From assembly GCA_013043005.1 (NCBI GenBank), contig JABDOZ010000175.1, positions 1 through 35,566 of the forward strand: DNA of 35,566 nucleotides, in the 5' to 3' direction. The stretch is from Flavobacteriaceae bacterium (GTDB taxonomy: Bacteria > Bacteroidota > Bacteroidia > Flavobacteriales > Flavobacteriaceae). The first letter of the stretch is position 1, and every line of letters starts with the position of its first letter. Of the stretch, positions 2,680-31,297 are shown one piece after another. Below the pieces are notes generated by a model. It was not told where the DNA came from. It did not search any database and saw only the letters and a program-made list of their open reading frames with translations. The position numbers were made by a program, and so were the translations under genes.

Positions 2680-3171
2680 TTATTCTATTATTAAATCTTC
2701 TATTATAGCATTTTCTAAAAGATAATCTTCGAGAATCTCTCCGGAAATTTGATTTTCTGTAAAATTATCAGTTGTTAATTCTTCTTCAATTAAGAGTGAA
2801 GCGATCTCATAAGTATCAATATCTTCGGTGAACAAATAATTCTCGATAGATGCTAATTCTAGATCATCAAAAGTAAAATCATTGTTATTTCCAATTATAT
2901 TAAACATCAATATCAATGCAGCAGCTATTCCTGTTGCGTATAGTAGATTACGTCTAGTAAATAATGAAATTACCTTAGGTTTTTGGACGACCTTATCAAG
3001 TATTTTATCATCCAAAGTCTCAAAATAATCAACCGGGACTTTAAAACCAGTATCCTTTACATTTTCATTTAAATTGATTTGACTCATTATAGAATCTTCC
3101 AAACCATCAAAATAGTTTTTTGGTGTTTTAAACCCTGAATCTTTTATGTTATGTAATTTATTTTTATTCAT
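2680..3171 (-). CDS. One-helix membrane protein, probable anti-sigma partner
   Basis: 163 residues, unrecognised family. The N-terminal half carries a duplicated motif: DSGFKTPKNYFDGLEDSIM and DTGFKVPVDYFETLDDKIL, about 26 residues apart. One hydrophobic segment follows at about residues 74-92 (LLYATGIAAALILMFNIIG). The rest is strongly acidic (many D, E and N) and reaches the C-terminus. The layout, a cytoplasmic N-terminus, one membrane helix and an outer domain, is that of membrane anti-sigma factors. The gene follows the ECF sigma gene with a gap of 33 bases. That it binds the sigma factor is inferred from position and topology only; the zinc anti-sigma HxxxCxxC motif is absent. Confidence 0.7.
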   Translation of the reverse strand: MNKNKLHNIKDSGFKTPKNYFDGLEDSIMSQINLNENVKDTGFKVPVDYFETLDDKILDKVVQKPKVISLFTRRNLLYATGIAAALILMFNIIGNNNDFTFDDLELASIENYLFTEDIDTYEIASLLIEEELTTDNFTENQISGEILEDYLLENAIIEDLIIE

Positions 3172-3204
3172 CCTAATAATTAGACTGTAACCATCTTAAA
3201 TGGT

Positions 3205-3744
3205 TTAATCCTTTGTTAAATAAGCTTCTATCTTTTTTACAGCTAAATGGTAAGATGCTTTTAAAGCACCTTCACTGGTTTCTAAAACCTCTGACATGTC
3301 TTTGTATTTAATATCATCAAAATATTTCATATTAAAAACTAGTTGTTGTTTTTGAGGCAAAGTAGCTATAGCCTGTTGCAATTTTAGCTGAATTTCATCA
3401 CCCTCAAAATAGACATCAGATTGTAAATTATCAACTGCATGTTGTTTTACTTCTTCACTAGCTAAATTTTGATGTTTTGCATTTTTATTTAAATGGGTAA
3501 TTGCTTCGTTTGTGGCGATTCTATACATCCATGAAAATAATTTACTTTCTCCTTTAAAATTACTAATATTCTTAAATACTTTAATAAACGTATTTTGCAA
3601 CACATCGTGCGTGTCATCATGGCTAATAACAATTTTACGGATATGCCAATATAATCGCTCCTTATAAAGAGAAATTAATTTTCTGAATCCTTCTTCTTTG
3701 GTTCTTTCGCTATTAAGAAGGCGTATAAGTTCTTTATCGTCTAT
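3205..3744 (-). CDS. ECF-type RNA polymerase sigma factor with a non-AUG start
   Basis: Sigma-70 family ECF factor that redirects RNA polymerase. Region 2 is visible (DVLQNTFIKVFKN, then FKGESKLFSWMYRIATNEAITHL) and region 4 as LPQKQQLVFNMKYFDDIKYKDMSEVLETSEGALKASYHLAVKKIE with a helix-turn-helix. The only ordinary in-frame start is the GTG at 3603. It would cut region 2 in half. The frame stays open to a stop at 3787-3789 and the extra residues are clearly sigma-like (DDKELIRLL, then GFRKLISLYKERLYWHIRKIV, then DTHDVLQ). Between that stop and 3603 there is no ATG, GTG or TTG. I place the start at the ATA at 3744, 4 bases after a GGAG, giving 179 residues and an N-terminus IDDKEL. The start is uncertain; the coding extension is not. 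Confidence 0.8.
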   Translation of the reverse strand: MDDKELIRLLNSERTKEEGFRKLISLYKERLYWHIRKIVISHDDTHDVLQNTFIKVFKNISNFKGESKLFSWMYRIATNEAITHLNKNAKHQNLASEEVKQHAVDNLQSDVYFEGDEIQLKLQQAIATLPQKQQLVFNMKYFDDIKYKDMSEVLETSEGALKASYHLAVKKIEAYLTKD

Positions 3745-3888
3745 GATGCTCCGTTTTTTGTTTAGACTATCAAAAATAAGAATAGTTTAATTTCTTCTGA
3801 ACAAATTGTCTTTGTAAGAAAATATTTAATAATATGTGATTCATCGTTAAAATATACTTTTTGTCGAAATATGGTTTTATGCCTTGGT

Positions 3889-30740: not shown

Positions 30741-30787
30741 GTAATATTGAATAGCGATAAAAAGCTAGATTGCAACCAAACCAAAAA

Positions 30788-31297
30788 ATGAATCAGGCAG
30801 AGTTTTTAAGCATAGTAGTGCCATTTAAAGATAAGATATTCCGATTAGCCAAACGCTTGTTGGTATCTACGGAAGAGGCTGAAGATGCTACACAGGAGAT
30901 GTTGTTGAAACTCTGGAAGAACAAAGAGCAGATACAGAATTATAAAAATGTAGAAGCTTTTTCAATGACGATGACAAAGAACTTTTGTTTGGATAAGTTA
31001 AAATCTAAACATGCACAAAATTTAAAGATCGTGCATAGTAATTACAAAGATGAAAACACGTCCTTACAGAAACAGGTAGAATTAAATGATAGTATTGATT
31101 GGGTTGGAAGAATAATTGAAGATTTACCACAACAACAGAAAATGGTGATTCAATTAAGAGATATAGAACAGTATGATCTGGATGAAATAGCAGAAATGCT
31201 AGAGATGAACAATACAGCAGTAAGAGTTACATTATCCAGAGCAAGAAAATCAATAAGAGAACAATTAACAAATACACACAGTTATGGTGTTAAATGA
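30788..31297 (+). CDS. ECF-type RNA polymerase sigma factor
   Basis: 169 residues from the ATG at 30788 (a TTG at 30770 would add six). Region 2 spans DKIFRLAKRLLVSTEEAEDATQEMLLKLWKNK, and FSMTMTKNFCLDKLKS continues it. Region 4 is LPQQQKMVIQLRDIEQYDLDEIAEMLEMNNTAVRVTLSRARKSIREQL, an HTH. It redirects polymerase to its own regulon; the promoter just upstream matches an ECF pattern. It overlaps the next gene, encoding a one-helix protein, by 14 bases, a common sigma/anti-sigma arrangement. Confidence 0.9.
   Translation: MNQAEFLSIVVPFKDKIFRLAKRLLVSTEEAEDATQEMLLKLWKNKEQIQNYKNVEAFSMTMTKNFCLDKLKSKHAQNLKIVHSNYKDENTSLQKQVELNDSIDWVGRIIEDLPQQQKMVIQLRDIEQYDLDEIAEMLEMNNTAVRVTLSRARKSIREQLTNTHSYGVK

Follow-up and report, generated by a model that had tools for sequence, protein, structure and literature searches.

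The locus considered here raises the question of how an ECF sigma factor could be made from a gene with no ATG, GTG or TTG at which its translation could begin. The window, a 35,566-nucleotide stretch of Flavobacteriaceae bacterium DNA, is contig 108 of a fragmented 2.2-Mb assembly that is 73.5% complete, and its genus is represented by this one genome. The minus strand was re-read and translated, which bore out the original prediction: the sigma frame runs without interruption from 3786 to its stop codon, TAA at 3207-3205, is bounded upstream by an in-frame TAA at 3789-3787 and contains no ATG, GTG or TTG between that TAA and the GTG at 3603. The features of the frame are as follows.

3205 to 3747, minus strand: ECF sigma factor coding region, 180 codons counted from ATC, assigned from Pfam, NCBIfam and relatives
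3745 to 3747, minus strand: ATC, the most likely initiator, which occupies the position of the GTG/TTG start in relatives (94/109)
3742 to 3744, minus strand: ATA, codon 2 in the register of the relatives, an alternative initiator with A at −3 and −6
3601 to 3603, minus strand: GTG, the first canonical in-frame start, within region 2 and implausible as a functional start

The protein counted from 3747 matched the Pfam families Sigma70_r2 (residues 24-90, E = 2.8e-12) and Sigma70_r4_2 (residues 121-173) and scored 92 bits against the NCBIfam sigma70-ECF superfamily, for which the cut-off is 42.9. It possesses sigma-70 regions 2 and 4 only and falls within the ∼160-200 amino acids of ECF sigma factors, and its best relatives are 75-80% identical across the full length. 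A frameshift had been named as an alternative at the outset; no frameshift or indel was seen in the sigma frame by tblastn comparison with ∼109 relatives, in which the alignments began at or very close to residue 1. With ATC as residue 1, the GTG at 3603 encodes residue 49 and, as first proposed, lies inside Sigma70_r2. Initiation at this codon was rejected, given that the resulting 132-amino acid ORF would miss part of region 2. An intact, full-length ECF sigma gene without a canonical start was confirmed, no AUG, GUG or UUG being compatible with the intact domain. Given that a canonical start stands near the same place in all 109 relatives examined, the missing start is more than a matter of chance.

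The relatives comprised 80 sequences from genome contigs and 29 from a family search, with 102 remaining after identical copies were dropped. Within this non-redundant set the sigma start codon was GTG in 65, TTG in 34 and ATG in 3, so that 99/102 begin with GTG or TTG. The start precedes the first aligned Asp by exactly two codons in 94 of the 109 relatives, and the window codon at this position is ATC (3747-3745). The adjacent ATA corresponds to codon 2 of the relatives, for which ATT (18), ATA (13) and ACT (10) were recorded among 88 sequences. The original prediction had taken ATA at 3744 as the best-placed initiator, derived by a single G-to-A change from an ATG that would stand at the same codon in homologues. 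The alignment instead places GTG/TTG starts one codon upstream, and an ancestral ATG at 3744-3742 was rejected because that codon is codon 2 of the relatives. The register-homologous start is ATC, and ATA is retained as a candidate. Judged from this alignment, the ancestral start was almost certainly a GTG or TTG one codon upstream of ATA, where ATC is now found.

The near-cognate codon is not kept in the relatives, which have GTG/TTG, with the genus represented by one genome. No other ATH sigma start was found among the relatives examined, and none was present among the matches listed in wider, loose pattern scans. The surrounding sequence is also unusual, ∼7 bases around the window start differing from those of relatives (GGAGCATC vs TTTTGTG); the family promoter-to-start distance is retained in the window leader, with no indel visible. 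At the sigma start of the relatives, a conserved A-rich and then T-rich stretch ending in KTGA extends from −12 to +4 and may not be just a weak ribosome site. In two loci of Aestuariibaculum type, the sigma protein is cut short by an in-frame TAA that falls before region 4 is complete.

The sequence upstream of ATC contains two promoter-like elements, for which transcript start positions were deduced from the usual −10 geometry.

3785 to 3790, minus strand: −35 element TTAAAC, which holds the in-frame stop TAA at 3789-3787
3762 to 3767, minus strand: −10 element GTCTAA, with a predicted transcript start near 3755 and a leader of ∼8 bases

The window promoter at 3790-3762 reads TTAAACTATTCTTATTTTTGATAGTCTAA, with the pattern TTAAAC-N17-GTCTAA; TTAAAC followed by exactly 17 bases and GTC occurs upstream of the sigma gene in 92/102 relatives. 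By sequence only, the AAC-type −35 element and GTC −10 element are those of an autoregulated ECF promoter. Given that the bounding stop codon belongs to the −35 box, the open frame preceding ATC consists of promoter and leader sequence. A coding extension upstream of 3747 was therefore rejected, the region matching the conserved promoter instead. The N-terminal residues assigned earlier to sigma region 2 thus stand in part: the gene is full length and includes region 2, but the frame upstream of ATC is non-coding. The whole assembly contains four exact matches to the promoter pattern, two of which lie in the sigma operon; a reversed control pattern has three. The single hits elsewhere in the assembly may be due to chance. 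The two operon copies are not, given that both stand at the expected places in a single operon and recur in relatives. Among the matches listed in a looser scan, promoter copies were observed upstream of genes for Spy-like, GLPGLI-like, lipoprotein and other exported proteins, and the genes so preceded could possibly form an envelope-stress regulon.

The second operon copy of the promoter coincides with the end of the sigma gene and is followed by two further genes.

3180 to 3208, minus strand: second copy of the promoter, TTAAAC-N17-GTCTAA, which shares bases with the sigma stop codon (GAT-TAA-AC)
2680 to 3171, minus strand: gene 2, probable membrane anti-sigma factor, ATG start, 163 amino acids, one hydrophobic segment
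2227 to 2676, minus strand: gene 3 of the operon, encoding an exported protein that resembles Spy/LTXXQ

The transcript start predicted for the second promoter is near 3173, 2 bases ahead of the next ATG, and the promoter is found with exact 17-base spacing ahead of gene 2 in 91/99 relatives. The distance from GTC to the start codon has a median of 11 bases for gene 2 vs 19 for the sigma gene, a value that predicts a nearly leaderless mRNA for gene 2. The gene 2 protein contains a repeated GFK.P..YF motif and gave no match to Pfam or to a known anti-sigma domain. A gene 2-like ORF follows sigma in 111/111 loci tabulated, and position and form point to a probable membrane anti-sigma factor. An ORF of 140-169 amino acids in turn follows gene 2 in 111/111 loci tabulated. 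The LTXXQ match is weak (E = 0.01 for gene 3 and 0.0017 for a relative, both below the curated cut-off). The operon would have a role in envelope stress.

Comparison of the sigma and anti-sigma genes at the same 99 loci revealed a strong difference in start codon. The sigma start is non-ATG in 96/99, whereas the anti-sigma start is non-ATG in 8/99 (ATG in 91/99); Fisher's test gave p = 3e-42, a value that is not corrected for relatedness. The base at −3 differs likewise: 74% of sigma starts have T there and 10% have A, whereas A is found in 57% of anti-sigma starts. A T-rich context at −3 is unfavorable in Flavobacterium. Initiation in Flavobacterium johnsoniae is promoted by A at −3 and −6 (PMC6847099), and codon and context together thus suggest that poor initiation of sigma has been selected. 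The earlier proposal that low-efficiency initiation keeps this sigma factor low fits the family, in which 99/102 relatives use GTG or TTG. On the best reading, sigma is kept poorly translated across the relatives and the window lineage has gone one step further, to AUC or the adjacent AUA. This family-wide pattern of weak starts is a more robust and more useful result than the near-cognate start itself. No report of GTG starts in Bacteroidetes ECF genes emerged from a search of the literature.

An infC gene offers a precedent for near-cognate initiation. The infC gene, which encodes IF3, has a near-cognate AUU, AUC or AUA start and is autoregulated through discrimination by IF3. The parallel with infC drawn in the original prediction holds in the same genome: infC (contig 124, 14757-15257, minus strand) has no ATG, GTG or TTG in its N-terminal region, which reads GTC ATA GCA ATA CGT AGA. 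A canonical N-terminal start is likewise absent from nearly all Flavobacteriales infC loci listed, most of which have the conserved sequence GYC-ATA-GCA-AT(A/T/C). From this conservation, ATA is probably the infC start in the same genome and order. The missing canonical infC start points to the use of near-cognate initiation in this genome, where it likely works. Both infC and the sigma gene are intact genes with a near-cognate AUH codon in place of a canonical start. Unlike the sigma gene, however, infC keeps its start across the order, whereas AUC/AUA at sigma is found in one genome and the relatives have GUG/UUG. The sigma gene would be compatible with the IF3-controlled class by codon class only.

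Taken with the operon structure, these results are best explained, with a probability of roughly 0.6, by a functional, positively autoregulated envelope-stress ECF sigma factor whose weak start has decayed to ATC, with the neighboring ATA as a possible second site. Here, RNA polymerase loaded with sigma would transcribe the sigma/membrane anti-sigma/Spy-like operon from TTAAAC-N17-GTCTAA, yielding a sigma mRNA with a leader of only ∼8-10 bases, and the anti-sigma gene would be transcribed again from the second promoter copy at the sigma stop codon. In Flavobacteriaceae, sigma would be translated from a weak GTG/TTG start in a T-rich context and anti-sigma from a strong ATG. We propose that this combination would provide more anti-sigma than sigma per activation and so prevent a runaway loop. 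In the window lineage, the start would have decayed in place to ATC, which initiator tRNA would recognize as near-cognate, and ATA might serve as a second initiation site. Against decay to ATC, the conversion of GTG or TTG takes two changes, the ∼7 neighboring differences make the local sequence unusual, an ATH start was seen in none of the other relatives examined, and the single genome of the genus comes from a fragmented assembly.

A more specific account, which we advance only tentatively, is that the Flavobacteriaceae sigma family is selected for poor initiation and that AUC/AUA is here under IF3-dependent discrimination as in infC. The non-AUG start, the T-rich −3 position and the ∼9-base leader would then all be features of poor initiation, opposed by a strongly initiated, nearly leaderless anti-sigma gene.

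It is rather unlikely that the working start is instead one codon downstream, at ATA 3744-3742, giving the N terminus Met-Asp-Asp-Lys. The infC gene apparently starts with ATA in the same genome and order, and ATA 3744-3742 has A at both −3 and −6, whereas ATC has A at −3 only; both positions promote initiation in Flavobacterium (PMC6847099). The sequence GGAG at 3752-3749 lies 4 bases before ATA, as originally described, vs 1 base before ATC. Given that Bacteroidia ribosomes sequester the anti-Shine-Dalgarno sequence (PMC9976891), this GGAG is weak evidence and would probably go unread, so that its position stands but should carry little weight. Further against ATA, the starts of relatives sit one codon upstream (94/109), and ATA and ATT are ordinary second codons among them. 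Folding of the leader (56-76 bases) revealed no strong structure over the sigma start. Register favors ATC, while context and the infC precedent favor ATA; ATC is placed first as the most likely initiator, and both codons may be used.

An assembly or sequencing error, with GTG, TTG or ATG as the true codon, is improbable. The assembly is fragmented and incomplete, the ATC start is unique in the family, and ATG is one base away from ATC. However, the likely ancestral GTG/TTG would need two errors in one codon, and promoter, spacing and frame are all intact. Two changes in the codon together with ∼7 neighboring differences, against a background of unchanged length, frame, promoter and spacing, disfavor a simple base-calling error, although a misassembly could also produce this pattern.

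Recent loss, in which sigma is no longer made in the window lineage and the gene is beginning to decay, would account for the missing start codon and rests on the one genome of the genus. It is highly improbable, given that nothing in the frame, the two sigma domains, the two promoter elements or the two downstream genes is disrupted and that identity to relatives falls within normal limits, although a very recent loss would look alike.

The preferred reading, decay of a weak start to ATC, has counterparts in other systems. The Escherichia coli genes pcnB (AUU) and cyaA (UUG) are held low by weak starts, and in these, as proposed for sigma, inefficient initiation restricts the output of a protein whose excess would be harmful. 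By contrast, the weak start of sigma would lie inside a transcriptional positive-feedback loop with a probable inhibitor. RpoE-RseA is an ECF sigma factor with a membrane anti-sigma factor, and CnrYXH includes a Spy-like sensor. The present operon resembles these in its sigma factor, putative membrane anti-sigma factor, periplasmic Spy-like protein and apparently autoregulated ECF-type promoter; it differs in the second promoter at the sigma stop codon, in a sigma start that is almost never ATG and in a gene 2 that matches no curated family. The SM6 sigma-ECF promoters of Flavobacterium psychrophilum share the ECF −10 box, and an ECF sigma/anti-sigma pair is among the SM6 targets, but SM6 is characterized by a CGT box and by targets in type IX secretion (PMC9723704).

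The near-cognate start is real and mildly surprising, occurring in a family in which ATG is already avoided. Such starts outside infC are rarely recognized because gene finders ignore these codons, and a sigma factor that uses one would be annotated as shortened or overlooked. The weak sigma start, strong inhibitor start and twin promoters would together constitute a testable form of translational damping of positive feedback.

The paralogous ECF frames of the same genome had too few clear starts to serve as a control. A second, distant ECF-like sigma frame is present on the plus strand of the window at 30767-31270, with 21% identity and an E value of 2.2e-7.
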